From contig NZ_JABDHQ010000019.1 of assembly GCF_018709685.1 (NCBI RefSeq), positions 1 through 43,696 on the forward strand: 43,696 nucleotides of DNA, in the 5' to 3' direction. The stretch is from Akkermansia muciniphila. Lineage in GTDB: Bacteria; Verrucomicrobiota; Verrucomicrobiia; Verrucomicrobiales; Akkermansiaceae. The first letter of the stretch is position 1. Each line of letters begins with the position of its first letter. Of the stretch, positions 1 through 19,153 are shown in pieces. The position numbers were made by a program, and so were the translations under genes. The notes under the pieces are model-generated. The model ran no database searches and was not told the origin of the DNA. It was given only the letters and a program-made list of their open reading frames with translations.

Positions 1-2
1 AG

Positions 3-1313: not shown

Positions 1314-1336
1314 TGAGACGGCAGGAAAATGGGAGT

Positions 1337-1354: not shown

Positions 1355-1453
1355 ATCGTTGAAGAATTCCGGAGTGTAGCGAAGGGGAAATAAGATGTGT
1401 GTTTTTAAGCTTTCGCGTTGCTTCGGAAGAAGGGGGCATTAGGTTCAGAAGAC

Positions 1454-2005
1454 TTAATGCCTAGGCTCTTCCCTATGGACCGTCAACGTGTGCGGATGCT
1501 GGGGAAGGGTGAAGCACCAGCCGAAGAGGCGTACAAAGCGGTAGTAAAGTCCCTTGCGGCTGGCGTGCTGGGTGGTCATGAGGTCGTAGAAGGCCAGGTC
1601 TATCTGGCTTCTGGCGATGGGGGCCCCGTTCATTTTGGCGTGCAGCATGGCGTCGTGGAACAGGGAAGGGAGGAGCATGTCCGGCGGGGTGGTTCCCCAG
1701 GTGACGCCGTCCCAGCCGTAGCCGGGAGAGATGGTGAATGTGCCGCCCTCCGCTTCCAGACGGATGGAAGGGTCGTAAACGCTGGAGGCTGTCCAGTGGC
1801 CGAAGTCCGCCTTTTTTCTCCCGCTGGTCCAGCTGATGGTGTTTTTAGTGATGTAGAAGGGCTTGCCTTCATAAAGGGTTCCTTCATACCATCCGGCCAC
1901 GGCTTCCGGAGCAGGGGAGGGCACGGAGCACGATTCCAGCAGCACCGCAACGCACGCTGTTGTGAATAACATGAAAATATCATGTGAATAAAAAAGAGAG
2001 GGCAT
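1454..2005 (-). CDS. Small lipoprotein with DUF1353-like domain
   Basis: 183 aa if started at the ATG at 2005, or 172 aa from the ATG at 1972. The N-terminus is hydrophobic and ends in a lipobox-like LESC, so export and lipidation are likely, although the stretch lacks the usual positive charge. The core (TFTISPGYGWDGVTWG, then PSLFHDAMLHA, then RSQIDLAFYDLM) matches the pattern of DUF1353 proteins: a glycine-aspartate-rich turn, an LHD-type motif and a D-x-x-F-x-x-M end. DUF1353 has no known biochemical activity. The gene begins 31 nt after the stop of the metallophosphoesterase on the same strand and is probably co-transcribed. Longer upstream in-frame sequence overlaps that neighbour and is not believed to be coding here. 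Confidence 0.65.
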   Translation of the reverse strand: MPSLFYSHDIFMLFTTACVAVLLESCSVPSPAPEAVAGWYEGTLYEGKPFYITKNTISWTSGRKKADFGHWTASSVYDPSIRLEAEGGTFTISPGYGWDGVTWGTTPPDMLLPSLFHDAMLHAKMNGAPIARSQIDLAFYDLMTTQHASRKGLYYRFVRLFGWCFTLPQHPHTLTVHREEPRH

Positions 2006-2036
2006 AGGTTGGCAGGGAGGGTTCCGAATGGTTGTT

Positions 2037-2894
2037 TTATTGGATTTCCAGCACGATGATTTCCGGAGGGCAGCAGAAGCGGAGGGGAAGAACGCTGCAC
2101 CCCAGCCCGCGCGTGATGAGGAATGGGGTTCCATTCAGCTGGGACCAGGGATAGGAGAATTTGGCCTTCTCCCGGGAGATGTTCGCCAGGGGCTTGCCGC
2201 CGGGCAGGCAAATCTGTCCGCCGTGGGTGTGGGCGCTGATAACGGCGTCCGCCGTGCCGGGAGCCAGCAACGGAAAGATGTCCGGTACGTGGGATAGCAG
2301 GATGTGGGGAATGTCCGGGGAGAGGCGCAGCGGCAGTTCCTCCGGCCTGATTCTCAGGTGGTAGTCATCACGGACGGAGGAAAGCTGGAGGTCCCTTCCT
2401 CCGGGGAGGTGCAGCAGCAGGGAATCGTTCCACATGGGCAGGATGCCCAGTTCTGAAAACATGTTCCGCCACAGGTCCCAGCCGTAGTACTGGTCATGGT
2501 TGCCCTGCACGGCAAAGATGCCCAGGGGGGCTTTCAGCATCTTGAAGTATTCCCGGGCGGTTTCCGGGCTCATGCTGCTCTCCCGGGTGTGGCCGTTGGC
2601 ATAGTCCCCCATCAGGAAGATCATGGCCGGCTGGGCCTCCATGATTTTTTCCATGTACCGGTGCGCCTGGTCGCCGCCGTTCGGGCGCAGATGGAAGTCT
2701 CCGGCAATCACGATCCGGAGCGGGGAGCCGCCTTTTTCCTTCCATTGCGGCACTTCCAGCGCGGTTGTGACGGTTTCCACGCGCCTGGGTTCCACCTGCC
2801 ACGCCCACATGAATAAGGAAAAGCCGATCATCAGTACTGAGACAGAGATGATTGCAAGTTTGTTGAGAAGGGGATGACGCGGGCGTGACTTCAT
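2037..2894 (-). CDS. Membrane-anchored metallophosphoesterase (YkuE-like)
   Basis: 285 aa from the ATG at 2894; a TTG at 2942 would add 16 residues and cannot be excluded. Residues ~10-33 form one transmembrane or signal-anchor segment. The calcineurin-like phosphoesterase motifs are complete and in order: GDFH (65-68), GDY (96-98), GNHD (131-134), SHVPD (201-205) and HTHGGQ (222-227), giving the dinuclear metal site. The family hydrolyses phosphomonoesters or phosphodiesters; the YkuE group acts near the membrane and some members process lipid A intermediates, but the substrate cannot be read from sequence. It is the first gene of a two-gene unit with the DUF1353-like lipoprotein and is divergent from the NifU-like gene at 3047. 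Confidence 0.85.
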   Translation of the reverse strand: MKSRPRHPLLNKLAIISVSVLMIGFSLFMWAWQVEPRRVETVTTALEVPQWKEKGGSPLRIVIAGDFHLRPNGGDQAHRYMEKIMEAQPAMIFLMGDYANGHTRESSMSPETAREYFKMLKAPLGIFAVQGNHDQYYGWDLWRNMFSELGILPMWNDSLLLHLPGGRDLQLSSVRDDYHLRIRPEELPLRLSPDIPHILLSHVPDIFPLLAPGTADAVISAHTHGGQICLPGGKPLANISREKAKFSYPWSQLNGTPFLITRGLGCSVLPLRFCCPPEIIVLEIQ

Positions 2895-2952
2895 GCGGGG
2901 CGGGCTCCGGACTGATGATGAAGCATTTCGCCCGGTTTTCAATCATTCGTGT

Positions 2953-2980
2953 TTGCCAATCGGGATTTTGCTGGTATGAT
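2953..2980 (+). promoter_or_regulatory. Promoter of the NifU-like/GGGtGRT operon
   Basis: TTGCCA (2953-2958), a 16-nt spacer and TATGAT (2975-2980), with TGG just before the -10 (extended -10). This predicts a start near 2987 and a leader of about 60 nt. It lies in the divergent gap with the metallophosphoesterase. Confidence 0.55.
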
Positions 2981-3046
2981 CCGTCCCGCTCAAGGTGGGG
3001 CTGTCCGATGACTGCAGGCCCATCTTCATATTAACATCCTAATACC

Positions 3047-3739
3047 ATGCAGTTTACACACGAAATCGAACAAATGTGTTGCGTCAAGAAAGGCTGCAAC
3101 CATGGTCCGGCCCCCATCCCGCAGGAAGGCAACTGGACGCAATCCAAGGAGATCACGGATATTTCCGGCCTGACCCACGGCGTGGGCTGGTGCGCTCCCC
3201 AGCAGGGCACCTGCAAGCTGACGCTGAACGTCAAGAACGGCATCGTTGAAGAAGCCCTTGTGGAAACCAGCGGCTGCTCCGGCATGACCCACTCCGCCGC
3301 CATGGCCGCGGAAATCCTGCCCGGCAAGACCGTGCTGGAAGCGATGAACACGGACCTCGTGTGCGACGCCATCAATACCGCCATGCGCGAACTGTTCCTG
3401 CAGATCGTGTACGGCCGCACCCAGAGCGCTTTCTCCGAAGGCGGCCTGCCCATCGGCGCCGGCCTTGAAGACCTCGGCAAAGGCCTCCGCTCCCAGATCG
3501 GCACCCTGTACGGCACCCGCGCCAAGGGCCCCCGCTACCTGGAAATGGCTGAAGGCTACATCACCAAGCTGGCTCTGGACGAAGACGGTGAAATCATCGG
3601 CTACGAGTTCGTCCGCATGGGCCCGATGATGGAAATGATCAAGAAGGGCATGGACGCCAATGAAGCCCTCGCCAAGTGCACGGGCAATTACGGTCGTTTT
3701 GACGAGGCCGCCAAGTACATTGATCCTCGTCACGAATGA
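3047..3739 (+). CDS. NifU N-domain-like iron-sulfur scaffold protein, partner of GGGtGRT
   Basis: 230 aa. The protein resembles the NifU/IscU N-terminal scaffold superfamily around SGCSGMTHSAAMAAEIL (about residues 75-91), which corresponds to the GC-containing cluster-ligand loop. Further cysteines occur in MCCVKKGC (10-17), GWCAPQQGTC and DLVCDA. In anaerobes this family is regularly encoded directly upstream of the GGGtGRT protein, as here (45-nt gap). The biochemical job of the pair is not established; the scaffold label comes from the fold family. Codon use is strongly biased towards C-ending codons compared with the neighbours, which suggests high expression. The ATG at 3047 is the first in frame after the predicted promoter. 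Confidence 0.8.
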   Translation: MQFTHEIEQMCCVKKGCNHGPAPIPQEGNWTQSKEITDISGLTHGVGWCAPQQGTCKLTLNVKNGIVEEALVETSGCSGMTHSAAMAAEILPGKTVLEAMNTDLVCDAINTAMRELFLQIVYGRTQSAFSEGGLPIGAGLEDLGKGLRSQIGTLYGTRAKGPRYLEMAEGYITKLALDEDGEIIGYEFVRMGPMMEMIKKGMDANEALAKCTGNYGRFDEAAKYIDPRHE

Positions 3740-3784
3740 GATTGAATTAAGAAGAGAATATCAACTTCAAGCACTATTACCATT

Positions 3785-4792
3785 ATGCCTCTTTTCGAAT
3801 CCTACGACCGCCGCATCAAGCAGATCAATGAAGCCCTGGCCAAATACGGCATCGGCTCCATTGAAGAAGCGGAACAACTCTGCCTTTCCAAGGGCATCAA
3901 CGTTCGCGAAATCGTGAACGGCATCCAGCCCATCGCGTTTGAAAACGCCGGCTGGGCCTATGTGGTGGGCGCCGCCATCGCCATCAAGAAGGGCTGCACG
4001 AAGGCCGCCGACGCCGCTGAAGCCATCGGTGAAGGCCTCCAGTCCTTCTGCATCCCCGGTTCCGTTGCGGATGACCGCAAGGTGGGCCTGGGCCACGGCA
4101 ACCTGGCCGCCATGCTCCTGCGTGATGAAACGGAATGCTTCTGCTTCCTGGCCGGGCACGAATCCTTTGCCGCCGCTGAAGGCGCCATCGGCATTGCCAA
4201 GTCCGCCAACCGCGTCCGCAAGCAGGACCTCCGCGTCTGCCTGAACGGCCTTGGCAAGGATGCCGCGTACATCATCTCCCGCATCAACGGCTTCACGTAC
4301 GTGCAGACCAAGTTCGACTATGCCACGGGCAAGCTGAACATCATCCAGGAGAAGGCTTTCTCCAAGGGCCCGAAGGCCGCCGTGCGCGTGTACGGCTGCG
4401 ACGACGTGCGCGAAGGCGTGGCCGTCATGTGGAATGAAGGCGTGGACGTTTCCATCACCGGGAACTCCACCAACCCCACCCGCTTCCAGCACCCGGTAGC
4501 CGGCACCTACAAGAAGGAATGCAACGAGAAGGGCAAGAAGTACTTCTCCGTGGCTTCCGGCGGCGGTACGGGCCGCACCCTGCACCCGGACAACATGGCT
4601 GCCGGTCCCGCCTCCTACGGCATGACCGATACCATGGGCCGCATGCACTCCGACGCCCAGTTCGCCGGCTCCTCCTCCGTGCCCGCCCACGTGGAAATGA
4701 TGGGCCTCATCGGCATGGGCAACAACCCGATGGTCGGCGCTTCCGTAGCGGTGGCCGTGGCTGTTGAAGAAGCCGCCAAGGAAAACGCCTGA
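3785..4792 (+). CDS. GGGtGRT family protein
   Basis: 335 aa, typical for the family. The naming motif SGGGTGRTLHPDN is near residue 258. A C-terminal stretch rich in Gly, Ala and Met follows (MMGLIGMGNNPMVGASVAVAVAVEEAAKENA region). Conserved cysteines occur in EQLCLS, KKGCTKA, QSFCIPGS, TECFCF and RVCLNG. The family is widespread in gut anaerobes and clostridia, nearly always next to a NifU-like protein, and has no assigned activity. Translation starts at the ATG at 3785, 45 nt after the partner gene, and the transcript ends at the strong hairpin just downstream. Codon bias matches the partner and differs from most other genes in the window, consistent with high expression. Confidence 0.88.
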   Translation: MPLFESYDRRIKQINEALAKYGIGSIEEAEQLCLSKGINVREIVNGIQPIAFENAGWAYVVGAAIAIKKGCTKAADAAEAIGEGLQSFCIPGSVADDRKVGLGHGNLAAMLLRDETECFCFLAGHESFAAAEGAIGIAKSANRVRKQDLRVCLNGLGKDAAYIISRINGFTYVQTKFDYATGKLNIIQEKAFSKGPKAAVRVYGCDDVREGVAVMWNEGVDVSITGNSTNPTRFQHPVAGTYKKECNEKGKKYFSVASGGGTGRTLHPDNMAAGPASYGMTDTMGRMHSDAQFAGSSSVPAHVEMMGLIGMGNNPMVGASVAVAVAVEEAAKENA

Positions 4793-4812
4793 GCGCTCCG
4801 TTAAAAATTCAC

Positions 4813-4849
4813 AGAGCCGCTTCCCTGATGAGGGGAAGCGGCTCTTTTT
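4813..4849. terminator. Strong rho-independent terminator after GGGtGRT gene
   Basis: A 13-bp perfect stem (AGAGCCGCTTCCC / GGGAAGCGGCTCT) with a 7-nt loop is followed by TTTT. It lies 20 nt after the stop codon and before a convergent gene. Confidence 0.9.
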
Positions 4850-4920
4850 ATGGCTTGGTGAACAAGGGAAGGGCGGAAAAGGAGGAATTACCGGCTCCCG
4901 CTGCTATTTCCTTCCGAAAA

Positions 4921-5511
4921 TCAGCTCCCGATGCGGAACCGTCCGTCCCGGTCCGTGCGCGGAGGCAGCCCGCGTGAAGGCGCGGATCTTCTGGAAACAG
5001 TCGCCGGTCTGGCTGCGGACGGCCTGACCACGCGGATTTCCGTCCGCCCGGTAGCAGCGGGTACAACAGTTTTCCCGGGTTCCGCGGCATGGACCGGAGC
5101 AGGGGCGGGGACTGTCCCGGCCACCAGTTTTTGCTGTTCATGGGACTTGTAGGCGCGCTGCAGGGTAAAATCTCTCTGTTCCCCGGGTTTCAGGGAGTAG
5201 TCCGCCTTCTTGGATTCCCCCGCTTTCCGGGCCAGGGGCTCCACGCGTTGCTGCAATTGCGCGGCGGTTTCCAGCTTGCCAGCCACCCATTCCGGATTCC
5301 ATTCCGGGGTTGAACTTTTCAGGGATTGAAGGAGTTCCGCGGCCTTTTTGCCGCTTTCCATGGCAGCCTTGTAATCGCCTTCCTTTTCCAGCCGCGCGGC
5401 GCGCGTCAGGGAAAGGTTGGCTTCGTAAAACGTGTCTCCGGGATCGCCGAGGGCCGTCATGGACGCCAGGATCATGCAGAGCAGGGAACAGGGTAGAAGA
5501 TGTCTTTTCAT
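4921..5511 (-). CDS. Small secreted protein of unknown function with RFRIGS tail
   Basis: 196 aa from the ATG at 5511. An N-terminal signal peptide (KRHLLPCSLLCMILASMTALG) is followed by a helical TPR-like segment of about 70 residues (DPGDTFYEANLSLTRAARL... to PEWNPEWVAGKL). A low-complexity Pro/Ala/Arg-rich region leads to the C-terminal RFRIGS. Both the helical segment and the six-residue tail match the much larger secreted protein at 38322-41066: DPxDxYxEA, LTRAA, DYxxA and PxWxP are shared positions. The two therefore look like members of one secreted family. Function is unknown. A longer N-terminal extension to 5592 is possible but would bury the signal peptide. Confidence 0.75.
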   Translation of the reverse strand: MKRHLLPCSLLCMILASMTALGDPGDTFYEANLSLTRAARLEKEGDYKAAMESGKKAAELLQSLKSSTPEWNPEWVAGKLETAAQLQQRVEPLARKAGESKKADYSLKPGEQRDFTLQRAYKSHEQQKLVAGTVPAPAPVHAAEPGKTVVPAATGRTEIRVVRPSAARPATVSRRSAPSRGLPPRTDRDGRFRIGS

Positions 5512-5521
5512 GATTGTTGGA

Positions 5522-5549
5522 ACTATAGCATGCGGGTCCGTTTTGGAAA
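5522..5549 (-). promoter_or_regulatory. Promoter of the small RFRIGS protein gene
   Basis: On the minus strand: TTTCCA, 16 nt, TATAGT. The -10 ends 10 nt before the ATG at 5511, so the predicted transcript would have almost no leader. Confidence 0.45.
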
Positions 5550-5629
5550 GGCCTTTCTTCCGGCATGTCCACATGGAGCAGGGGAAGGCCACGGCCTGGA
5601 GATGAGCGGGAGGATGGATGTTTCCTCTT

Positions 5630-6312
5630 TTATGAACGAAGCCTATCTAATTTGCGGCGAAGCATTTGAAGAATTTCCTGCGGGGTGCGGCCGGGTTCCC
5701 TGATCCAATCGTAAAACTTTTCCCCATTGACCGGAATCCTCACGTTCCCCAGCTGTTTCAGTCTAATGCCTATGTGTTCAGACCAGCAATTGTTACGATA
5801 TACCCCTCCGCTTCCAACGCCAAAAAAGTGCCTCATTATCATGCTTATTTTAATGTGGAGCATATTCTGCTCTTTTGCTTTCAATATTCTCTTATTGATG
5901 GATATACGCCACTCCTTCTCTATTTTGGTCAGATTCCTCTTCCGCCATGTATCAGCATAGAAACGGCATTCATTCTCACTGATGATCTTGCCATTTAAAG
6001 CTTCCCGCAGGCACGCCGGATTAAAAGGCTTAGTGATGTCTTTCCGGACCCGGCGGATGGCATCAAAGTGTTTGATATATCAAGGTTCATGAATTTTTTC
6101 ACACAGTGATTACCTACGGTCAGTTTTTTTCTATTGATCATGTTTTGAATGATACAGTGCTCTTTAATAACGTGCCCGCAAATGCATGTACCTTCTTCCT
6201 CCTCCAAAAATGTTTCCACGTGTTCCCATTCCCGCAACGCAGACAGGAACCACTTGGATTCGGAATTAGCTACCAGCTCTGAGCAGAATTGATCCATATA
6301 TGAATTATTCAT
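5630..6312 (-). pseudogene. Frameshifted Cys-cluster (putative zinc-binding) protein gene
   Basis: Two reading frames on the minus strand make one protein when joined by a -1 shift. Frame one starts at 6312 (MNNSYMDQFC) and carries CICGHVIKEHC and VGNHCVKKF, a CxC-x7-C plus C arrangement that could bind zinc. It should stop being meaningful at LDISNT. The neighbouring frame then continues without a stop (FDAIRRVRKDITKPFNPA... down to RRKLDRLRS) for ~145 residues, giving about 227 aa in all. The shift must lie between 6063 and 6079, because an in-frame TGA (6080-6082) blocks the second frame upstream of this. No slippery heptamer was seen in the zero frame, so mutation (or a sequencing error) is preferred over programmed frameshifting. 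The gene is markedly AT-rich relative to its neighbours, suggesting transfer. Function is unknown. Confidence 0.65.
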
Positions 6313-6467
6313 GATTTTATTTTCTATTCATGAGGCGTGCGTGAATGCGCCCTCACCATTCAGGGAAATTTTCAAAATGCATTTCCCCTTCTATATGTTT
6401 CCCCCTCGTCTCTTTCAGCAGGCGCGGGTTTCTTCCTTATTCCAAGCATTTCCGTACCCGGCACAAC

Positions 6468-6496
6468 TTGACGGAAAGGCGGGAGTGCCGTATGAT
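6468..6496 (+). promoter_or_regulatory. Promoter of the methylase-xerD unit
   Basis: TTGACG (6468-6473), 17-nt spacer, TATGAT (6491-6496), ending 16 nt before the ATG at 6513. This is among the best sigma-70-type matches in the window. Confidence 0.6.
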
Positions 6497-6512
6497 GGTT
6501 TAGACCTGATAT

Positions 6513-7646
6513 ATGACCCGGAACGAGCCATCATCCACTCCCGCTCTGCCGATGGAGGAAGACCCCAGATACCTGACGGAACAGATTGTGACGTATCTGG
6601 GCAACAAGCGTTCCCTGTTGCATTTCCTGGGTACGGGGCTGGAGGAGGTGAAAAGCCGCCTGGGGAAGGAGAAATTGAGGGCAGGAGACCTGTTTTCCGG
6701 CAGCGGCATTGTAGCCCGTTTCCTGAAGAAGCATTCGGAGGAATTGATTGTCAATGATCTGGAGGAATACAGCCGCATCGTCAACACCTGCTACCTGAGC
6801 AACCCGGAGGAAGTGGAGAATCTGGAGCTGGAGAGGCATTACCGGCGCCTGCTGCGGTATATGGAAGAGCATGAGTCCCCGGGCTTTATCACGGAATTGT
6901 ACGCTCCCAAAAATCCGGACAGCATCACGCCGGAAGACCGCGTTTTTTATACGCGCCGCAATGCCGTGTACCTGGATACGGCCCGGCAGACCATCAACCT
7001 GCTTCCGGAAGACGTCAGGCCGTATTTCATCGCCCCCCTTCTGGCGGAAGCCTCCGTGCATACGAACACGTCCGGCGTGTTCAAGGGGTTTTACAAGGAC
7101 AGGCAGGGCGTGGGCAAATTCGGCGGCACGGGCGGCAACGCCCTCGCCCGCATCCTGGGGGATATTTCTCTACCGTTTCCCGTGTTTTCCAGATTTGAAT
7201 GCCAATATTCCATCCATTGCCGGGATGCCAATGAACTGGTTGCGGAATTGCCGGAGATGGATGTGGTGTATCTGGACCCCCCTTACAACCAGCATCCGTA
7301 CGGTTCCAATTATTTCATGCTGAACCTGCTGTCTTCCTATGAAAAGCCGGAGGAAACCAGCCGCGTCTCCGGCATTCCCACGGATTGGAAGCGTTCCACG
7401 TACAACAGCCGCCAGCACGCCCCGGCGGCCCTGTTCCGGCTGCTGGAAGAGTGCCCGGCCAGGTTTATCCTGCTTTCCTACAGCTCGGAGGGGTTCATCA
7501 GCTATGAGGAGATGACGGAGTTCCTGGGGCGCCTGGGCCGCATTGTGACGCTGGAAACGCCGTACGCCACCTTCCGGGGGAGCCGGAATTTGAGGAACCG
7601 CCCTCAGAACGTGACGGAGTTCCTGTTCCTGGTGGAACGTTTTTAA
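6513..7646 (+). CDS. DNA adenine methylase (D12/DPPY class)
   Basis: 377 aa; an ATG at 6552 would shorten it by 13 residues. Motifs of N6-adenine methyltransferases of the alpha (D12) class are present in order: YLGNKRS (28-34, cofactor side), DLFSGSG (59-65, S-adenosylmethionine binding) and DPPYNQHPYGSNYF (255-268, catalytic). The ~190-residue insert between them would hold the target recognition part. It is longer than Dam (~280 aa). No restriction endonuclease gene is adjacent, so it is probably a solitary methylase, or its partner is elsewhere. The downstream recombinase gene starts after 22 nt, so the two are likely co-transcribed from the promoter at 6468. The recognition sequence cannot be read from the protein. 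Confidence 0.85.
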   Translation: MTRNEPSSTPALPMEEDPRYLTEQIVTYLGNKRSLLHFLGTGLEEVKSRLGKEKLRAGDLFSGSGIVARFLKKHSEELIVNDLEEYSRIVNTCYLSNPEEVENLELERHYRRLLRYMEEHESPGFITELYAPKNPDSITPEDRVFYTRRNAVYLDTARQTINLLPEDVRPYFIAPLLAEASVHTNTSGVFKGFYKDRQGVGKFGGTGGNALARILGDISLPFPVFSRFECQYSIHCRDANELVAELPEMDVVYLDPPYNQHPYGSNYFMLNLLSSYEKPEETSRVSGIPTDWKRSTYNSRQHAPAALFRLLEECPARFILLSYSSEGFISYEEMTEFLGRLGRIVTLETPYATFRGSRNLRNRPQNVTEFLFLVERF

Positions 7647-7650
7647 CGGG

Positions 7651-7656
7651 AAGGAG
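7651..7656 (+). promoter_or_regulatory. Shine-Dalgarno-like site for xerD
   Basis: AAGGAG lies 12 nt before the ATG at 7669. Clear Shine-Dalgarno sequences are rare in this window, so this one supports the chosen start. Confidence 0.45.
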
Positions 7657-7668
7657 AGGTAGAAGGTC

Positions 7669-8556
7669 ATGCAAGCCCATCTGGAACGCTTCATCCGTTT
7701 TCTGGCCGCAGAGAAGGGCTTGAGCGCCGCCTACCAGCTTTCCGTGAGGCAGACGCTGGAGGAATTCGCCCGGTTCCTGGGAACGGAGGACGCCGATCTT
7801 TCCCAGGTGGACATCGGCAGGCTTACGGAGTTCCTGCGGCATTTGCAGGCCCGCGGCATGGCCCGCAGTTCCATGCGGGTGGAAATGGTGCATTTGCGCA
7901 TTTTCTTCCGCTGGCTGGCCGGGATGGGGATGCTGGAAAAAGACCCTTCCGCTTTTCTGGAAATGCCCCGGCAGGGGCTGTCCCTTCCCCATGTGCTGGA
8001 TCAGCAGACCGTTTCAAAATTGCTTGAAAACATTGACGTTCAAGATATTCCTCTTGGATGCAGAGACAGGGCGCTGCTGGAGATGATTTATGCCTGCGGC
8101 ATGCGGGTGAGTGAAGTAATTAGCTGTAAATTAGAGAGTTTTGACGCTGATGACGCGTTCGTCAGAGTCCAGGGGAAGGGGGACAAGACGCGGCTGGTTC
8201 CCGTAGGAAGATCGGCTCTGGAGGCGTTGAAGGCGTATCTGGAGAAAGGAAGGCCCAAACTGGTCAAGCCGGGAACGAAGAGCCATATTTTCCTGACGGT
8301 GCGCGGGAGGCCGCTGACCAGGGAACGGGTGCGCCAGATTCTTCAGGAGCGCGCCAGGGCCGCGGGAATAGACCAGCACGTTTTCCCGCATATTCTGCGG
8401 CATTCCTTTGCCACGCATCTGCTGGAGAATGGCGCGGACCTGCGCATCATTCAGGAGATGCTGGGCCACGCGGATATTTCCACCACGCAGATCTACACGC
8501 ATCTGGAACAGCAGCGGCTGAACGCCATTCATCACCGTTTTCATCCCAGGGGGTGA
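7669..8556 (+). CDS. xerD: Tyrosine recombinase XerC/XerD family
   Basis: 295 aa, the usual length for Xer proteins. It has an N-terminal SAM-like core-binding domain (1-~85) and a C-terminal catalytic domain with the complete active site: R146 (ACGMRVSE), K170 (GKGDKTRLVP), H241 and R244 (HILRHSFATHLL), H267 (LGHADIS) and Y276 (TQIYTHL). These proteins resolve chromosome dimers at dif, usually as a XerC/XerD pair under FtsK control. It is the second gene of a unit with the adenine methylase. A dif-like sequence lies only 102 nt downstream, an arrangement better known from single-recombinase systems such as XerH/difH and XerS. Whether this is XerC, XerD or a lone Xer cannot be settled without the rest of the genome. 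Confidence 0.88.
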   Translation: MQAHLERFIRFLAAEKGLSAAYQLSVRQTLEEFARFLGTEDADLSQVDIGRLTEFLRHLQARGMARSSMRVEMVHLRIFFRWLAGMGMLEKDPSAFLEMPRQGLSLPHVLDQQTVSKLLENIDVQDIPLGCRDRALLEMIYACGMRVSEVISCKLESFDADDAFVRVQGKGDKTRLVPVGRSALEALKAYLEKGRPKLVKPGTKSHIFLTVRGRPLTRERVRQILQERARAAGIDQHVFPHILRHSFATHLLENGADLRIIQEMLGHADISTTQIYTHLEQQRLNAIHHRFHPRG

Positions 8557-8632
8557 AGGTGCGGTGCAGGATTCCTGCATGAGGCATGGCCGGGGGGATG
8601 ATTGGGAAGTATCCTGTTTAAAGACAGTATTC

Positions 8633-8716
8633 AACGGGCTTTGTTCACTAGCTCTATATTTTGCATTACATATATTATGCGAAGTATTAACAGGGGTATT
8701 CTCCAGCCCGTTTTTC
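8633..8716 (+). terminator. Inverted repeat with T-tract bracketing the dif-like site
   Basis: AACGGGCT (8633-8640) and AGCCCGTT (8705-8712) are perfect 8-bp complements. The right arm runs into TTTTTC, as in a terminator. The 64 nt between the arms contain the dif-like site, whose centre is within 1 bp of the centre of the repeat. It may end the xerD transcript, or it may be an architectural element of the recombination site. Confidence 0.4.
8658..8685 (-). other. dif: dif-like Xer recombination site
   Basis: Read on the minus strand, the 28-bp site has an 11-bp XerC-type arm ACTTCGCATAA, a 6-bp centre TATATG and an 11-bp XerD-type arm TAATGCAAAAT. The inner arms form a dyad (GCAT...ATGC). 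By hand alignment against remembered reference sites, 21 of 28 positions match Bacillus subtilis dif and 20 of 28 match Escherichia coli dif. It lies 102 nt after a xer gene in an otherwise gene-free AT-rich tract. It is either the chromosomal dimer-resolution site, marking the replication terminus, or a dif-like site carried by an element. Confidence 0.7.
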
Positions 8717-9039
8717 TTTTCTACAGGGTTTCCCGGACTGCCCCGTTCATCAGAACCGACAAGAGGGAGCGCCGCCAGCCTTTTGCAGCCATTCGAATCA
8801 ATATAACTCGACCGAAAGGCAGGTTCTCTTTCCAATTGCCTCCTTGGCTCCCATCCAGTCAATTTCTAGAACCCGCGCGCTCCCTGGATGCCTTTCTTCT
8901 TCCCGTTTCCAAGCAGCCAGCCGGGCGCTTCCATTCAAACCGTGGGGCTCCTATCTTGGCTATCTTGGTAGAACTCTCCCGATCTTCTCTGGGGAAGATA
9001 ACTACCGGCATTTAGATGTCCCTTCCCTGCGCTTCTCTC

Positions 9040-9068
9040 TTGCCAGATCATCTTTCATCCGTCATAAT
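9040..9068 (+). promoter_or_regulatory. Promoter of the secreted protein gene at 9078
   Basis: TTGCCA (9040-9045), 17 nt, CATAAT (9063-9068). The -10 ends only 9 nt before the ATG, predicting a leader of roughly 0-4 nt. Confidence 0.55.
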
Positions 9069-9077
9069 GAAAAAAGC

Positions 9078-10373
9078 ATGAATACTTTCGTCTCTCTTTG
9101 CCTTATCGGAGGCCTCAGCCTGGGGTCCCTCTGCTATGCCCAGCACATGGATAATGATGCCAAGAAGAAGGTGATCAAGGATTTGGAGAATCTCCTCGCC
9201 CTGAACAGGTCTGCGGAAACCAAGGTGATCAATGCCGCCATCAGCAAGCTTAATTCCGCCGGCAGAGACCCCAGCGCCGCGTACGACCTGCTGATCCAGT
9301 CCAAGAAGTTCCTCATGGAGGCGGAAAAGGAGAAGGATAAGAGCCAGGGAAAGAGCGCGAAGATCGCCTCCAATTCCCTGAAGGACTGGATGGACCGCGA
9401 GGCCAAGAAGTACCAGGACAAGAATGCCCGCAAAGGGTTGATGCTCCAATATCAATGGGGCGTGCTGGTACTCAGGGCCCGGCTTAAGGAGAACCTGATG
9501 AATGCCACGTCAAGCGCCACCAACGGAGCGGAGGAGGAGTCCCTGGACGTGACGGAGTTCCAGAAGCCCGCCATGGATTTGCTGAACGCCTACCTTTCCG
9601 CCTGCGCGGACCCGGATTTCATTGATCCCTCCGCCACGGCTTCCTCCAAAAACAACGGAGGAGGAGCCGGCAAATCCGGCGCCCGCATTGCGGAACAGTC
9701 CGTCCTGAATACGGAGGTGGGAGAAGCCCTGGGCATCAGCAGCATGTCCTCCAAGGCCTTCCCTGATTCCATGAAGAACCGTGACGAGATTTTTGACAAG
9801 CTGTTCTTTACGGGCTACCGCAAGACGCGCAACCTTCCCGCCCTCAGGCAGGCATGGAGCAAGAGAATTTCCATGGAAGTGGCCCTGGGCAAGGTCAGCC
9901 ATGCCATTTCCACCGGCAAGAAGTCCGGCATGCAGGGCCGCATCGCCAATGCGTCTGAAGACGAGTTCGACGAGCAGGATTCCTCCATCCTGGACCGTTT
10001 GCGCTGGCGCTGTGAACTGGATTGCTTTGACCTGGGCGACCAGGCGAACGCCACACGGAACATGATGACGCTGATCCGGACCACGGTGGACCCCGTGCGC
10101 CGGGAACAGGGAATCCGGACGCTCCGTGACAAGCTGATCCAGAGCATGAAGAGCATGGTCACAGCCTCAGAGGATGGGAGCATGGCGGACAGTTCCTCTT
10201 CATCTTCATCCGCCGCGCCGCGCCCCGCAGTGCGGCCGCCCAGAAGGAAAACCCCTCCCACCACGATTACGACCAGCCGTGAAATGGATGATCCCGGCGC
10301 CATCGGTACGGATGTGCCTAAGCCGCCCAAGCCGGACCCCACCCGGAGCGACGATTTTTTTGAAGACGCGTAA
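9078..10373 (+). CDS. Secreted protein of unknown function
   Basis: 431 aa from the ATG at 9078, chosen because it begins a clear signal peptide (MNTFVSLCLIGGLSLGSLCYAQ) just after a good promoter. The mature part is mostly helical and charged (KKVIKDLENLL, LNSAGRDPSAAYDLLIQSKKFLMEAEKEKDK), resembling TPR-like or coiled helices but without a repeat that can be named. Residues ~355-431 are low complexity: a serine run, then proline/arginine-rich sequence and an acidic end (DDFFEDA). No family was recognised. The same layout of signal peptide, helical body and disordered Pro-rich tail recurs in other secreted proteins of this window, suggesting a periplasmic or envelope role, but no function is assigned. 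Confidence 0.7.
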   Translation: MNTFVSLCLIGGLSLGSLCYAQHMDNDAKKKVIKDLENLLALNRSAETKVINAAISKLNSAGRDPSAAYDLLIQSKKFLMEAEKEKDKSQGKSAKIASNSLKDWMDREAKKYQDKNARKGLMLQYQWGVLVLRARLKENLMNATSSATNGAEEESLDVTEFQKPAMDLLNAYLSACADPDFIDPSATASSKNNGGGAGKSGARIAEQSVLNTEVGEALGISSMSSKAFPDSMKNRDEIFDKLFFTGYRKTRNLPALRQAWSKRISMEVALGKVSHAISTGKKSGMQGRIANASEDEFDEQDSSILDRLRWRCELDCFDLGDQANATRNMMTLIRTTVDPVRREQGIRTLRDKLIQSMKSMVTASEDGSMADSSSSSSSAAPRPAVRPPRRKTPPTTITTSREMDDPGAIGTDVPKPPKPDPTRSDDFFEDA

Positions 10374-10438
10374 CAGGTTTTAGCCAAGTCTGTTGCCTGA
10401 ACGGCGGCTCCGGCGCCCATGGAATGCACAGAGCATCC

Positions 10439-10468
10439 TTGACGTTTGGAGCCGTCCTTTTATACAGT
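10439..10468 (+). promoter_or_regulatory. Promoter of the iron-containing alcohol dehydrogenase gene
   Basis: TTGACG (10439-10444), 18 nt, TACAGT (10463-10468), or 16 nt to TATACA (10461-10466). The -10 ends 6-8 nt before the ATG at 10475, so the predicted transcript start falls on or next to the start codon. Confidence 0.5.
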
Positions 10469-10474
10469 AGGGGC

Positions 10475-11635
10475 ATGTATCAGCCATTTCAGTTTTTCAT
10501 GCCCGCGCAGATTTTCTTTGGCGCGGGTTCTTTGGACAATCTTGGTTCCGCCCCCCTGCCCGGCGCCAAGGCCCTGATCGTCATCGGCGGCACGTCCGTC
10601 CGGCGTCTCGGTTATCTGGACCGCGTTCAGGACCTGTTGAAACGGCAGGGAGTAGACAGCGTCGTTTTTGACAAGGTCCAGCCCAACCCCGTGGTGGAGC
10701 ACGTGATGGAAGCGGCCGCCCTGGCCAAGGAGACAGGGTGTGATTTCGTCATCGGCCTGGGCGGAGGCAGCAGCATGGATTCCGCCAAGAGCATTGCCGT
10801 GATGGCCGCCAATCCGGGAACCTATTGGGATTACATCCAGGGCGGTTCCGGCAGGGGCCTGCCTATTCCCAACAAGCCCCTTCCCATTGTCTGCATCACC
10901 ACCACGGCAGGCACGGGAACGGAAGCGGACCCGTGGACCGTCATCACGAAGGAGGATACGCAGGAGAAGATCGGCTTCGGCTTCAAGGGCACCTTCCCCA
11001 CCATGTCCATCGTGGACCCGGAGCTGATGCTTTCCGTTCCGCCCAAATTGACGGCTTACCAGGGCTTTGACGCCTTTTTCCACGCCGTGGAGGGGTACAT
11101 GGCCACGATCGCCTCTCCCATGGGGGATATGTTCGCGCTCCAGGCCATTGAATACGTCTCCAAGTATCTTCCCCGCGCCGTGCATAACGGGGATGACCTG
11201 GAGGCGCGCGCCTACGTGGCGCTGGCCAATACGTATTCCGGTTTTGTGGAAACGATTTCCTGCTGCACCTCGGAGCATTCCATTGAACACGCCCTGAGCG
11301 CCTTCCATCCGTCCCTGCCCCACGGCGCTGGGCTGATCATGATTTCCTGGGCCTATCATGAAGCTTATGCTCCTTCCTGCCCGGAACGTTACGCCAGGGT
11401 AGCCGCCGCCATGGGGCAGGAAGCTTCCGTGGACGGCTTCCTGAACGGGCTGAACAAGTTGAAGGAGGCCTGCGGCGTGGACAAGCTGAAGATGTCCGAG
11501 TACGGCATCACTCCGGATTTGTTTGAGGAGTACGCCAAAACGGCCTTTTCCACCATGGGCAACCTGTTTGAGCTGGACCGCTGCAAGTTTACTCCGGCGG
11601 ATGTCGTCAGCATCCTGGAAAAGTCCTATTCCTAA
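10475..11635 (+). CDS. Iron-containing alcohol dehydrogenase
   Basis: 386 aa, typical of group III (Fe-ADH) enzymes. The dinucleotide-binding signature GLGGGSSMDSAKSIA is near residue 100 and TTTAGTGTEADPWTVI follows. Metal ligands are seen as GFDAFFHAVEGY (Asp and His) and the HSIEHALSAFHPSLPHG segment (two further His). The closest types are butanol/1,3-propanediol dehydrogenase-like and YqhD-like enzymes that reduce aldehydes with NAD(P)H in fermentation. The exact substrate is not predictable. The start at 10475 fits the promoter and the usual N-terminus (FQFFMPAQIFFGAGSL). Its stop codon overlaps the stop of the convergent DUF190 gene by 3-4 nt, leaving no room for a separate terminator. 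Confidence 0.87.
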   Translation: MYQPFQFFMPAQIFFGAGSLDNLGSAPLPGAKALIVIGGTSVRRLGYLDRVQDLLKRQGVDSVVFDKVQPNPVVEHVMEAAALAKETGCDFVIGLGGGSSMDSAKSIAVMAANPGTYWDYIQGGSGRGLPIPNKPLPIVCITTTAGTGTEADPWTVITKEDTQEKIGFGFKGTFPTMSIVDPELMLSVPPKLTAYQGFDAFFHAVEGYMATIASPMGDMFALQAIEYVSKYLPRAVHNGDDLEARAYVALANTYSGFVETISCCTSEHSIEHALSAFHPSLPHGAGLIMISWAYHEAYAPSCPERYARVAAAMGQEASVDGFLNGLNKLKEACGVDKLKMSEYGITPDLFEEYAKTAFSTMGNLFELDRCKFTPADVVSILEKSYS

Positions 11636-11985
11636 GAGCGGGAACCGCCTACGGAACGAATGCGGACAGGCTGCGTGCACGCCAGACAGCCGTGCGGCAG
11701 CCTGTCCAGCCAGCAGGAGATTTTTTCCAGGAACGTTTCAATGCGTTCGGAGGTGTCCATGATCTCAATGATGACGGGCACCTTCTCGGTAATTTCCCAG
11801 AATTTGGGGCTCATCAGGCGCGTATGCCGGCCGAACCCCATCAGTCCCTTGTAAACGGTGCAGCCGGCCATGCCGTAGCGCCGGGCGGCATACGCTACAG
11901 CTTCGTGAATGGGGGTGTGCCTGACGGCGTCAGTGCTGCTGACGTAGATGCGCAGCATGAGGGTTTCTTCCGGAGTATTCATCAA
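11632..11985 (-). CDS. DUF190 family protein
   Basis: 117 aa. The sequence fits DUF190, small PII-like fold proteins: LRIYVSSTDAVRHTPIHEAVAYAARRYGMAGCTVYKGLMGFG, then VPVIIEIMDTSERIETFL. Members are often encoded beside crcB/fluC fluoride channel genes, as here, where the channel gene ends 8 nt upstream, so the pair is an operon. A role in sensing or regulating fluoride export is plausible from this linkage but unproven. The gene converges on the alcohol dehydrogenase and the two stop codons overlap. Confidence 0.85.
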   Translation of the reverse strand: MMNTPEETLMLRIYVSSTDAVRHTPIHEAVAYAARRYGMAGCTVYKGLMGFGRHTRLMSPKFWEITEKVPVIIEIMDTSERIETFLEKISCWLDRLPHGCLACTQPVRIRSVGGSRS

Positions 11986-11993
11986 GTTGTTTC

Positions 11994-12362
11994 CTATCTG
12001 GCGGCCAAGTATCCCAGGCCAATGGCAATGAGGCCCCCGGCAAAGCTGAGGAGGGTGTAAAGAAAGAAGGCCGGGAAGTTCCCTTCCTTCAGCAGAAGGA
12101 AGGATTCATTCATCAGCGTGGAAAAGGTGGTGAAGCCGCCGCACAGCCCCACGGTAAGGAAAAGCCGCGTTTCCGTATGCAGCAGCAGGCCCCGGCTGAA
12201 CAGCCCGTAGAGGACGCCCAGGACCAGGCATCCCAGCAGGTTGACCGCCGCCGTTCCCCACGGAAAGGGACTCATGGAGCTGGTCTGGACAAAACGGGCC
12301 AGCAGAAAGCGCAGCACGCCTCCCGCAAAGCTTCCCAGCCCGACCATCATCAGCATTTTCAT
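11994..12362 (-). CDS. crcB: Fluoride channel CrcB/FluC
   Basis: 122 aa with four predicted membrane helices. Family motifs are present: GGVLRFLLAR near residue 14, WGTAAVNLLGCLVLG near 39 and GLCGGFTTFSTLMNES near 72. The TTFST segment holds the pore phenylalanine and the central sodium-site residues. CrcB proteins form dual-topology dimers that export fluoride. It is the first gene of a two-gene unit with the DUF190 protein. No fluoride riboswitch was recognised in the 380 nt upstream. The ATG at 12362 is preferred; a second Met lies two codons later. Confidence 0.92.
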   Translation of the reverse strand: MKMLMMVGLGSFAGGVLRFLLARFVQTSSMSPFPWGTAAVNLLGCLVLGVLYGLFSRGLLLHTETRLFLTVGLCGGFTTFSTLMNESFLLLKEGNFPAFFLYTLLSFAGGLIAIGLGYLAAR

Positions 12363-12742
12363 GATAGCGGCTTTTCTCCGGTTGAATGGGAATAAGGCTC
12401 CGGGCGCGGTTCCAAAGTGGCCGTGACCGGATAGTTCAGAAAAAGGCGGCCGAAGACTGGAGGAAACGGCCCGTTTCCTTGAACGGAATGGCGGCGTCCG
12501 GCGTTTCCGGGAATGGGTTTAAAGGCGTTCATGTTCGTATGGGGATATCCTTTACCGGGTACAAGGCTTCTGCATCCGGTGTGATACAGAAGCCATCAGC
12601 CTGCCGTGCAGGCGGTTTAGGGAGCGTTCCCAGGGAAGAGCCTCATTTCCTTTAAGCGTGTGCAGGTAAAATAACCCGTTTTTTCCATATCTCCAGCCTT
12701 TTATTCTTGATCGCGGGTTTAAATCCGTATTCCCTTTCTTCC
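12363..12742. other. 380-bp divergent gap between crcB and the PfkB kinase
   Basis: No gene was found. It holds a perfect interrupted palindrome AGGAAACGG-C-CCGTTTCCT (12461-12479) and a looser hairpin GGCTTCTG/CAGAAGCC (12565-12594). Both could be operators or transcript structures. No known riboswitch was recognised. Confidence 0.5.
12461..12479. repeat. Perfect 9-bp palindrome with 1-nt centre
   Basis: AGGAAACGG, one C, then CCGTTTCCT. No T-run follows on either strand, so it is more like an operator or an architectural site than a terminator. Confidence 0.4.
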
Positions 12743-13702
12743 ATGTCCCAGCCCCTGCTTGTTACCGGAACCATCGGAATTGATACCATCCTCACTCCCC
12801 GCGGACGTGCGGAGGGCGTGCTGGGCGGTTCCGTTTCCTTTGCGGCCGTGGCGGCCCTGATGTTCGCGGACCGGGTGGACGCCGTCAGCATCATCGGGGA
12901 GGATTTTCCCACCCATTATGAAGAGTCCCTGGCGGCCAAGGGACTGCGCATGGACGGCGTGGAGAGGAAGAAGGGGCCGTCCTTTTCCTGGACCGGGGAA
13001 TATTTTGACAATATGAACAAGCGCAGGACCGTCTGCGCCAATGATTCCGTCATGCTGGAATGGAACGTTCACGTGCCGGAACCTCTCCAGAGCCACCCGG
13101 TGCTGGCGTGCTGCTGCATGGTTCCGGCCCAGCAGCTCAAGTGCATGGAACAGTGCCCGGACGCCTCCCTGGTGCTTTCCGATTCCATGGACAAGTGGCT
13201 GCGCCGCCAGCCGGAGCTGCTGGACGCCGTGATCAGCCGTTCCCACATCACCATGATGAATGAGGATGAAGCCAAGGAGTACGCCCATGCGTCCACCGTG
13301 CTGGAGGCCGGGGAGTTCCTTCTTTCCAAGGGGGCCGTTTATGCGGTGGTGAAGCAGGGGGAATACGGCGCCACACTCCTCGGACGCGGGCCGGAGGGAG
13401 GGACGGACATTTTCCGTTGCCCGGCCTACCCGCTGAAAACCCTGGTGGACCCCACCGGGGCGGGAGATACGTTCCTGGGCGCCCTGGCCGGTTATCTTGC
13501 CACCCTGCCGCCGGGCCTTCCTTCCTTTGAGGAGATGAAGAGAGGCATTATTTACGGCACCGTAGCCGCCTCCTTCACCTGCGAGTCCTTTTCCGCGGAC
13601 GCCCTTCTTTCCATGACGGCGGAGACTTTCTGCAAGCGCCTGGAAGAGTATGTGGCCATGTGCCGCATTCCCACAGGCTGCGTTTCCATACGGGAGAATT
13701 GA
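12743..13702 (+). CDS. PfkB family carbohydrate kinase
   Basis: 319 aa. It is a ribokinase-like fold: an N-terminal substrate lid (GTIGIDTILTPRGR, GGSVSFAAVAALMF) and the C-terminal PfkB signature DPTGAGDTFLGALAGYL near residue 247, with Asp of GAGD as the catalytic base. The TWGxN-type middle region is replaced by cysteine-rich LACCCMVPAQQLKCMEQC, which is unusual. The substrate (a sugar, nucleoside or similar) cannot be told. The start at 12743 was chosen because it puts the conserved first beta strand (LLVTGTIGIDTI) at the usual place; an in-frame ATG at 12707 would add 12 residues. It ends at a hairpin shared with the convergent lpxC-fabZ gene. Confidence 0.83.
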   Translation: MSQPLLVTGTIGIDTILTPRGRAEGVLGGSVSFAAVAALMFADRVDAVSIIGEDFPTHYEESLAAKGLRMDGVERKKGPSFSWTGEYFDNMNKRRTVCANDSVMLEWNVHVPEPLQSHPVLACCCMVPAQQLKCMEQCPDASLVLSDSMDKWLRRQPELLDAVISRSHITMMNEDEAKEYAHASTVLEAGEFLLSKGAVYAVVKQGEYGATLLGRGPEGGTDIFRCPAYPLKTLVDPTGAGDTFLGALAGYLATLPPGLPSFEEMKRGIIYGTVAASFTCESFSADALLSMTAETFCKRLEEYVAMCRIPTGCVSIREN

Positions 13703-13708
13703 TTAAGG

Positions 13709-13743
13709 AAAAACCCCGGCGCGGGCATGCACGCCGGGGTTTT
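13709..13743. terminator. Bidirectional terminator
   Basis: AAACCCCGGCG (13711-13721), a 10-nt loop, CGCCGGGGTTT (13732-13742) and a further T. The A-run on the left and T-run on the right let it serve both the PfkB gene and the convergent lpxC-fabZ gene. Confidence 0.85.
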
Positions 13744-13770
13744 GTAAAGACGGGGCTGCGTTCAGGCAGG

Positions 13771-15087
13771 TCAGATGTCCTGAAGACCGAATTTGAGCTC
13801 TGCTTCCGATACCACCTGGCCGTTCACCAGGCAGCGGCCGAGGGCCTGGCCGATGTTGCCGCGCATCTTGGTCATCTCCGCTTCAATGATGAGCGTATCA
13901 CCGGGGACCACGGGACGGCGGAATTTGATCTTGTCCGCGCTCATGAAGTAGCCGAGCTTGGTGGCGTTGCCGGGCTGGCGCAGCATGACGATGGAGGCCA
14001 CCTGGGCCATGGCTTCCAGTTGCAGGACGCCCGGCATGACCGGATGCCCCGGGAAATGGCCCTGGAAGAAGAGTTCATTCATCGTCAGGTTCTTCAGGCC
14101 GCGGCACTTGGTTTCCCCTTCAAAGCCAATGATGCGGTCCACCATCAGGAAGGGATAGCGGTGCGGCAGGAGGTTCATCACTTCATTGATGTCTAGCACG
14201 GCGTCTCCGTACGGCACGTTGACCGGGTTGGGGGCCATTTGCTGGTTGCGGCGGTGTTCCTTCTTCAGCTTGGCGGTCAGCTCCGTGTTCGGGCCGTGGC
14301 CCGGCTTGATGGCGATCACGTGGCCCAGGATGGGCTTTCCGCACAGGCTGAGGTCACCGATGAGATCCATGGCCTTGTGGCGGGCGAATTCATTGATGAA
14401 GCGCATGGGCTCCTTGCTCATGAGTTCCTCTCCGCGGATGACCACGGCGTTTTCCAGGCTGCCGCCCTTGATGAGGCCTTTTTCCAGCAGGGGCTTGATG
14501 TCCTCGTAAAAGGTGAAGGTACGGGCCGGGGCCAGTTCCTTTTCATACGTTTCAGGCGTGATGACCGCGTCAAAGTACTGGGTGATGCGGTTTTCCGGGC
14601 CCACGCAGGTGACGGAGACGCGGAATTGCTTGGAGGGGAGAATGGTCAGGATGGAACCGCCCTTGGTTTCAATGGTGACGGCTTCCCGCACTTCCAGATA
14701 GCGCCGCGGCACATCCAGTTCCACGATGCCGGCGCTCTTGATCAGCTCCACGTAGGGGGCGGAGGAACCGTCCCCGATGGGCGGTTCATTGGCGTCCATT
14801 TCAATGACGGCGTTGTCAATCCCCATGCCCGTGAGGGCGGAAAGGATGTGTTCCACGGTGTGTACCTTGACGGAGCCTTCCGCCAGGCTGGTGGCGCGCT
14901 CCACGGTCTGCACCTTTTCCACGTCCGCGTTGATGAAGGGCTGGTCCGGAATGTCCACCCGGCGGAATTTAATGCCGAAGTCGGCAGGGGCCGGCTTCAG
15001 CGTCAGGGTCACGGGCTGTCCCGTATGCAAAGAGGTACCGGCCAGGGAGGCCGGAGAGCCGACAGTTCTTTGGTTTCCACATGCCAT
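13771..15087 (-). CDS. lpxC/fabZ: Bifunctional LpxC-FabZ: UDP-3-O-acyl-GlcNAc deacetylase / 3-hydroxyacyl-ACP dehydratase
   Basis: 438 aa, a fusion of two enzymes. Residues ~1-285 are LpxC, the zinc deacetylase committing UDP-acyl-GlcNAc to lipid A. Zinc and catalytic residues are visible: E79 and H80 (KVHTVEH), H237 and D241 (FARHKAMDLIGD) and H256. Residues ~295-438 are FabZ: LLPHRYPFLMVDRI, then GHFPGHPVMPG with H344 and the catalytic E358 in LQLEAMAQ. The natural fusion is known from Bacteroidota and Verrucomicrobiota and couples lipid A and fatty acid synthesis, two pathways that compete for 3-hydroxyacyl-ACP. Both active sites appear intact. The promoter lies immediately upstream, with very little leader. 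Confidence 0.95.
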   Translation of the reverse strand: MACGNQRTVGSPASLAGTSLHTGQPVTLTLKPAPADFGIKFRRVDIPDQPFINADVEKVQTVERATSLAEGSVKVHTVEHILSALTGMGIDNAVIEMDANEPPIGDGSSAPYVELIKSAGIVELDVPRRYLEVREAVTIETKGGSILTILPSKQFRVSVTCVGPENRITQYFDAVITPETYEKELAPARTFTFYEDIKPLLEKGLIKGGSLENAVVIRGEELMSKEPMRFINEFARHKAMDLIGDLSLCGKPILGHVIAIKPGHGPNTELTAKLKKEHRRNQQMAPNPVNVPYGDAVLDINEVMNLLPHRYPFLMVDRIIGFEGETKCRGLKNLTMNELFFQGHFPGHPVMPGVLQLEAMAQVASIVMLRQPGNATKLGYFMSADKIKFRRPVVPGDTLIIEAEMTKMRGNIGQALGRCLVNGQVVSEAELKFGLQDI

Positions 15088-15096
15088 ATGCGGGGA

Positions 15097-15125
15097 ATGC
15101 TAGTTAATGAGCTCCCGTTTGGAAA
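15097..15125 (-). promoter_or_regulatory. Promoter of lpxC-fabZ
   Basis: On the minus strand: TTTCCA, 17 nt, TAGCAT. The -10 ends 9 nt before the ATG at 15087. The boxes match the consensus at four positions each. Confidence 0.4.
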
Positions 15126-15245
15126 GCACGAAATCACGGATTTTCCTGTAAATTCAGGGAATGGACGGTATTCCGGCGTGTCATCCGGTGAGGGAGCGGA
15201 GAAAGGGCGCTTGAAAAAACGCCTTTCTCCCGGTAGTGATGTTCC

Positions 15246-16148
15246 ATGCACATCACAGCAGGCCCCGGCATTTCCCGCGCATTCATTCTCGGCGCCGGGC
15301 TGGGCACCCGTCTGCGGCCCCTGACCAGCGTGCTTCCCAAGCCGCTGATTCCCTTTTTCCATGAGCCCCTGGTGCTGCATTCCATGCGCCGCTGTTATGA
15401 CTGCGGCATCCGGGAGTTCATTATCAACACACACCATCTGGCGGAAGCCTGGGACCGCGTGTTCCCGGACCGTTCCTGGAACGGGTGCCCCGTCCATTTC
15501 AGCCATGAAGCCGTACTGCTGGATTCAGGCGGCGGCGTCAGGAAGGTCAAGCCCTGGGCCTCCGCGGAGGAACCCCTGCTGGTGATGAACGGGGACATGG
15601 CGGCCACCTTTGACCTGCACCGGCTGCTGGAGGACCATCTGCGGAACCGTCCCGCCGTGACGCTGGCCCTCCGGACTGCCGGAGACAAGAGGAATGTGGG
15701 CTTTGACCCTTCCTCCGGACTGGTGACGGATATGCGGCACGCCCTGGGGCGCGATCCCGGTTCCCGCCAGTTTACCGGGGCATACTGCATGGAACCGGAG
15801 GTTTTCAGCCATATCCCTCCCCATGGGGCCGTTTCCATCATTCCCGTTTTTCTGGACTACATCCGCCAGGGCCGTCTGCGCGGCATGCCGGCGGACGACG
15901 GCCTGTGGATGGACATGGGTACTCCGGAGTCCTACATCCAGGCCCATCTGGATTTTCCCTCCCCTGCTCCGCGCATTCATCCGGACGCGGAAGTGTCTCC
16001 CGGGGCCTCCGTGGACGCTGCCAGCGTGATCGGGCCCCGCGCCGTCGTGGAAGAAGGCTGCCGCCTGCGGGAATGCATTGTTTGGCCCGGCGTCCGCGTT
16101 CCCGCCGGCACCCGTGCGGAACGGCGGATTTTTCATCTCTCTCTTTGA
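15246..16148 (+). CDS. Sugar-phosphate nucleotidyltransferase
   Basis: 300 aa. The N-terminal signature AFILGAGLGTRLRPLTSVLPKPLIP (residues ~12-36) is that of NTP-transferases that make nucleotide sugars from sugar-1-phosphates. Metal-binding VMNGDMAATFDL follows near residue 117. The C-terminal part (HPDAEVSPGASVDAASVIGPRAVVEEGCRLRECIVWPGVRV) is a short left-handed beta-helix of hexapeptide type. The overall layout resembles MurU-like and GDP-mannose pyrophosphorylase-like enzymes, but the sugar is not determinable. It is upstream of, and nearly abuts, the NAGPA-like gene (10-nt gap), so the two are probably co-transcribed. A TTGAAA -35-like box lies at 15211-15216 but its -10 partner is poor. 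Confidence 0.83.
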   Translation: MHITAGPGISRAFILGAGLGTRLRPLTSVLPKPLIPFFHEPLVLHSMRRCYDCGIREFIINTHHLAEAWDRVFPDRSWNGCPVHFSHEAVLLDSGGGVRKVKPWASAEEPLLVMNGDMAATFDLHRLLEDHLRNRPAVTLALRTAGDKRNVGFDPSSGLVTDMRHALGRDPGSRQFTGAYCMEPEVFSHIPPHGAVSIIPVFLDYIRQGRLRGMPADDGLWMDMGTPESYIQAHLDFPSPAPRIHPDAEVSPGASVDAASVIGPRAVVEEGCRLRECIVWPGVRVPAGTRAERRIFHLSL

Positions 16149-16158
16149 CTGCCCACCC

Positions 16159-19149: not shown

Positions 19150-19153
19150 AACC

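Follow-up and report, generated by a model that had tools for sequence, protein, structure and literature searches.

A 28-bp sequence in Akkermansia muciniphila is almost certainly the chromosomal dif site of this genome and is of the ordinary XerCD type. It lies in a window of 43,696 nucleotides (the whole stretch of DNA analyzed here), beside a gene for a XerD-like recombinase. The identification rests on computation: the site is present once, is conserved where its flanks are not, lies at or near a switch in GC skew, and has octamers of convergent polarity around it, and genes for XerC, XerD, and FtsK-gamma are encoded. What is unusual about this otherwise ordinary XerCD dif site is its clade-specific arrangement. 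Several independent lines of evidence place the terminus and dimer-resolution site of this widely studied gut genus.

The 28-bp site and its conservation

The site occupies positions 8658..8685 on the minus strand, where it reads ACTTCGCATAA-TATATG-TAATGCAAAAT (in full, ACTTCGCATAATATATGTAATGCAAAAT), with two 11-bp arms and a 6-bp center. A reading made earlier from the sequence alone had reported a dif-like Xer site here, and its letters, strand, and coordinates proved exact. Based on alignment with E. coli dif, ACTTCGCATAA (8675..8685, minus strand) is the presumed XerC-binding arm and TAATGCAAAAT (8658..8668, minus strand), which faces xerD, is the presumed XerD-binding arm; the central hexamer TATATG spans 8669..8674 on the same strand. 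The arms form a dyad that agrees at 8 of 11 positions, and the G+C content is 25% in the site versus 59% across the window. The 28-mer is identical to B. subtilis dif at 21 of 28 positions. It shares 20 of 28 positions with E. coli dif, the letters of which were taken from a table (PMC2731167), and both values reproduce the earlier hand counts. In the XerD arm, E. coli has TTATGT where this site has TAATGC. The site is apparently noncoding: xerD ends before it and the next conserved gene lies beyond it, and open frames of 137 and 243 amino acids overlap it mechanically.

A degenerate pattern made independently from E. coli dif and B. subtilis dif, with up to 3 mismatches allowed, matched the window once, at 8658-8685, and matched 0 of 100 dinucleotide shuffles. 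Across 13 whole genomes, the same pattern matched 7, once each and always at the same site, and the other 6 carry variants of the site that lie more than 3 mismatches away and gave no match. The sequence-only reading had considered that a better dif might exist elsewhere, and this pattern found none in the 13 genomes.

The exact 28-mer occurs once in its own 2.86-Mb genome. Allowing up to 3 mismatches, we found it in 62 of 76 Akkermansia genomes, with one copy in each, and a reversed-pattern control gave 0 matches throughout; the site at this threshold was absent from 14 of the 76, including 8 of the 55 good-quality genomes. Of 97 genomes of the family, 15 have the 28-mer within 3 mismatches, and a looser pattern is found in 58. 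A second pattern, applied to 26 genomes of genera g6, g13, and g10, matched 25 (23 of them new), so that all patterns combined place the site in 81 of the 97. In clade B and genus g11, a search with 24 genes of the window found none of them in the stretch around dif, and the site is intact beside unrelated flanks, with conservation fading at approximately the edges of the 28 bp. This is the opposite of the other outcome that had been considered, in which the flanks would be kept and the 28 bp lost.

A dif site was previously predicted for A. muciniphila ATCC BAA-835 using Proteobacteria and Firmicutes profiles, according to passages of Kono 2011 (PMC3025954); that prediction concerns the same genus and may correspond to the present site. 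Passages of PMC9241678 state that one A. muciniphila lineage has multiple dif sequences and XerCD copies, whereas each of the 62 genomes in which we found the site had a single dif-like copy.

Copy number also bears on the suggestion that the site is the attachment site of an integrative element or phage carrying this xer gene. A tyrosine recombinase beside a recombination site would fit such an element, as would the DNA to the right of dif, which is variable among clade-A genomes (G084, G071, and G028). However, each genome has one copy, the XerD protein is vertically inherited in the genus and present beyond it, and the full 28-mer occurs in 0 viral contigs. In addition, no second, half, or hybrid site was detected within 9.5 kb to the right of dif in 7 clade-A genomes, where the best candidates had 11 to 13 mismatches. 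We therefore consider an attachment site highly improbable and abandon that alternative in favor of a chromosomal dif.

Matches to the two half sites in viral contigs were tried separately. Nine contigs contain CATATATTATGCGAAGT, eight of them 4.7 to 7.7 kb long, and these looked like small phages at first but are eight near-identical fragments of one phage type plus one other contig. We dropped them as chance matches because the second arm differs at 7 to 8 of 11 positions. The other half site matched 12 viral contigs, in which 6 to 11 of 11 positions of the second arm differ, and these were likewise dropped.

Skew and octamer polarity at the terminus

Because the genome itself is in 48 contigs, we read GC skew in three single-contig relatives from a sample of 20 stretches per genome, each of 19.9 kb, together with the dif region. 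Along each genome, the sampled skew runs from negative to positive to negative. The switch from positive to negative falls between 2.57 and 2.63 Mb in G055 (dif at 2,632,477) and between 2.22 and 2.30 Mb in G038 (dif at 2,261,323). In G028 it falls at dif, with a skew of +0.100 in the 10 kb before the site and −0.026 in the 10 kb after it. With the skew origin taken as the middle of the bracket in which negative turns to positive, dif is separated from that origin by 49% (G055), 47% (G038), and 49% (G028) of the circle. Several genomes show weak skew within 10 kb of dif, and in G055 the skew is near zero already from 2.55 Mb onward.

We also noted the position of dnaA in these relatives (G055:C1:31-1392, G038:C1:31-1398, and G028:C1:68-1429), which is 1.07 to 1.20, 0.97 to 1.05, and 1.22 to 1.30 Mb, respectively, from the GC-skew origin. 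Given that these distances exceed 0.95 Mb, dnaA is not a marker of the origin by skew in these Akkermansia.

The E. coli KOPS octamer GGGNAGGG points toward dif from both sides at 29 of its 32 occurrences in the window. The left flank (1..8657) has five on the plus strand and one on the minus strand, and the right flank (8686..43696) has 24 on the minus strand and two on the plus strand, so that both are mostly dif directed. The best switch point in the window is tied between 8173-9020, which contains dif, and 4866-7982. When 22 loci were pooled, 165 of 177 octamers were convergent (left, 91 plus and 8 minus; right, 4 plus and 74 minus), with two loci having no octamer on the right and one having none on the left. 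Keeping one clade-A member left 12 loci with a similar count (left, 48 plus and 5 minus; right, 1 plus and 33 minus).

Convergence of GGGNAGGG ranked first among 56 same-letter permuted patterns, the other 55 of which averaged 0.68 convergent, indicating that GC skew accounts for part but not all of the polarity. Across 60 sampled stretches, the octamer occurs 358 times on the leading strand versus 68 times on the lagging strand; the top strand-bias z among the octamers counted belongs to GGGCAGGG. In the Verrucomicrobiota genomes examined, the octamer that guides FtsK in E. coli keeps the polarity that it has in that species. A switch of KOPS polarity at dif has been described over diverse replicons in PMC13342612, passages of which name Akkermansia only as lacking extra replicons. 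Our literature search, in which most sources were available short of full text, returned no description of KOPS in Akkermansia. Based on the skew switch in three relatives and the octamer convergence, it is very probable that the site is the chromosomal dif and marks the replication terminus, which the sequence-only reading had raised as one of two possibilities.

Recombinases and FtsK

The gene beside dif, read earlier as a xer gene, encodes a XerD-like tyrosine recombinase of 295 amino acids (7669..8556, plus strand), as judged by profiles, phylogeny, and structural relatives. The protein scores 322.7 bits against NF001399 (cutoff, 279) and 321.3 bits against the XerD model TIGR02225, just under the cutoff of 329.6, compared to 294.6 bits against the XerC model TIGR02224. 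Among solved structures, the closest is that of E. coli XerD (1a0p; E value, 2.2e-51), with the presumed active-site blocks aligned. In a tree, the protein groups with XerD and apart from XerC (100/100).

The genome contains four matches to this protein, namely itself, genes on contigs C12 and C19, and a weak match on C23. The C12 gene is XerC-like, with 326.1 bits against the XerC model, just under the cutoff of 335.15, and an FtsK-gamma domain is encoded on C44. FtsK-gamma was present in all six genomes tested. The genus search recovered both XerD-like and XerC-like genes in all 12 genomes in which xerD adjoins dif, and in 9 of the 76 genus genomes, all of them drafts, only one of the two matched at the search threshold.

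The match on C19 (G000:C19:18431-19330, L004) is an accessory Xer-like recombinase, full length with ∼31% identity, which was found in 2 of 15 genomes searched, the other being at G047:C1:1122058. The gene on C23 (L005) is integrase-like and more distant, and the two genes after it resemble, by eye, an abortive-infection toxin-antitoxin pair.

XerD identity between Akkermansia clades is 52 to 55%, which prompted us to consider xenologous replacement of xerD. This was rejected, as all Akkermansia XerD proteins group together, with support of 94/95 in one tree and as one side of a 99/96 branch in another that included 11 of the 12 adjacency genomes (G101 was left out) and 20 XerD rows from the 64 other genus genomes. 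The split of XerC between clades resembles that of XerD, and the two trees agree in outline.

The sequence-only reading had also proposed a lone-Xer arrangement, in which the adjacent recombinase acts alone as in XerS/difSL or XerH/difH. Passages of the literature on those systems tie gene-site linkage to a single recombinase whose gene lies beside its own site, as the earlier reading had stated and as seen here, and in Akkermansia the adjacency is kept in 12 genomes. Set against this are the XerC-like partner, present in every one of those 12 genomes with a tree that follows that of XerD in outline, and the FtsK-gamma domain. The adjacent protein is XerD-like rather than XerS-like (94 bits against the XerS model, with a cutoff of 267), and the site has the classical 28 bp with a 6-bp center, whereas passages on difSL describe 31 bp with an 11-bp center. 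We consequently give a lone recombinase very little credence and retain a system with two recombinases. Adjacency is unusual for a system with two recombinases, given that linkage typifies those with one, and the locus is a counterexample to linkage as the mark of a single recombinase.

The features shared with the XerCD/dif/FtsK systems of E. coli and B. subtilis include the 28-bp 11-6-11 site, the XerC, XerD, and FtsK-gamma genes, placement at the terminus, and convergence of GGGNAGGG. From these we infer binding by XerC and XerD, cleavage, and activation by FtsK at dif. On a dimeric chromosome, each dif copy would be bound at its two 11-bp arms by XerC, encoded on C12, and XerD, the gene of which lies 101 bp from the site, and convergent GGGNAGGG octamers would lead FtsK there. 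FtsK would then activate XerD, followed by strand exchange in the 6-bp center, and the dimer would be converted to two monomers before division, as in E. coli. The recombination reaction need not differ despite the adjacency.

The position of xerD relative to dif

The xerD stop codon ends at 8556, 101 bases before dif; the adjacency noted by the sequence-only reading therefore stands, and its spacing of 102 nt is corrected to 101. The spacer (8557..8657) is poorly conserved, and no terminator was found in it. Passages of a survey of XerCD/dif systems place xerC mostly near dif and xerD mostly near the origin (PMC3025954), in contrast to the arrangement here. The passages of that survey on predicted dif sites make no mention of xerD adjacency in Akkermansia. 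Our search of the literature, mostly in sources short of full text, likewise yielded no description of xerD beside dif in a two-recombinase system.

A check of gene and site across the genus, called for by the sequence-only reading, showed conservation of the site (62 of 76 genomes) and only in part of the adjacency, which we found in 12 of the 62 dif-bearing genomes, with the end of XerD 79 to 139 bp before dif in the same orientation. None of the other 50 encodes XerD within at least 1.5 kb on that side, and 46 of them also lack it within 1.5 kb on the opposite side. The 11 adjacency genomes placed in the tree form one clade (100/100). G102, on a long branch, is its probable but uncertain sister (93/76); there, gene order is kept up to methyltransferase-xerD, and a gene of 923 amino acids separates xerD from dif, leaving a gap of 2,984 bp. 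Where both are on the same contig, xerD and dif are 36 kb (G009), 53 kb (G033), 89 kb (G073), and 219 kb (G146) apart. For other genera, four single-contig genomes give distances of 2.06 to 2.07 Mb (G048 and G036), 2.37 Mb (G019), and 2.40 Mb (G082). In the remaining family genomes, the two are on different contigs or one of them was not found. This range (adjacent, 3 kb, 219 kb, and megabases apart) offers a natural set for asking if the position of xerD matters.

To look for the adjacency outside Akkermansia, we used five typed reference sites to scan 80 XerD-like loci from named genomes, many of the flanks being short and a divergent dif being expected to escape. Only one locus (L020), a contig of a named Akkermansia metagenome-assembled genome, had a site with up to 5 mismatches, in the same xerD-dif arrangement and with 94% XerD identity. 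Another (L072) had a site with 6 mismatches ∼4 kb from the gene.

Given that xerD is apart from dif in other Akkermansia and other genera, xerD became the neighbor of dif within Akkermansia, and the adjacency, by this comparison of genomes, is a derived arrangement of one clade of the genus. The likeliest cause is a rearrangement of the terminus region, and a single inherited event accounts for the pattern. We also considered that, in the A. muciniphila group, xerD and dif are a linked module at the terminus under selection, in which xerD, duplicated last, would have a dosage or late burst of expression tied to the completion of replication, or would supply XerD locally. Twelve genomes of one clade retain the linkage, several of them with the far-side DNA replaced or extended. 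On the other hand, no sequence sign of functional coupling was seen in spacer conservation or a terminator, a gene intervenes between xerD and dif in G102, and xerD and dif are apart without visible cost in G146 (∼219 kb) and in four other genera (∼2.1 to 2.4 Mb). With one inherited event sufficient, we view selected linkage as unlikely and prefer simple descent of a rearranged terminus. If the linked module were real, two-recombinase systems could evolve gene-site linkage too, and such linkage would be no hallmark of a single recombinase.

To the left of dif, the DNA is stable among close relatives. A gene for a D12-class adenine DNA methyltransferase (6513..7646, plus strand; PF02086, 73.1 bits) lies 22 bp upstream of xerD, with which it possibly shares one operon, and both G102 (L305) and the clade-A genomes examined have it next to xerD. 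To the right, the DNA differs among clade-A relatives (L129, L132, and L133), with G084 carrying ∼0.9 kb and G071 3.8 kb of additional DNA and G028 showing no homology within 9.5 kb. In G102 (L305), we observed two small genes that look HU/IHF-like by eye, 701 to 965 and 3,348 to 3,618 bp to the right of dif.
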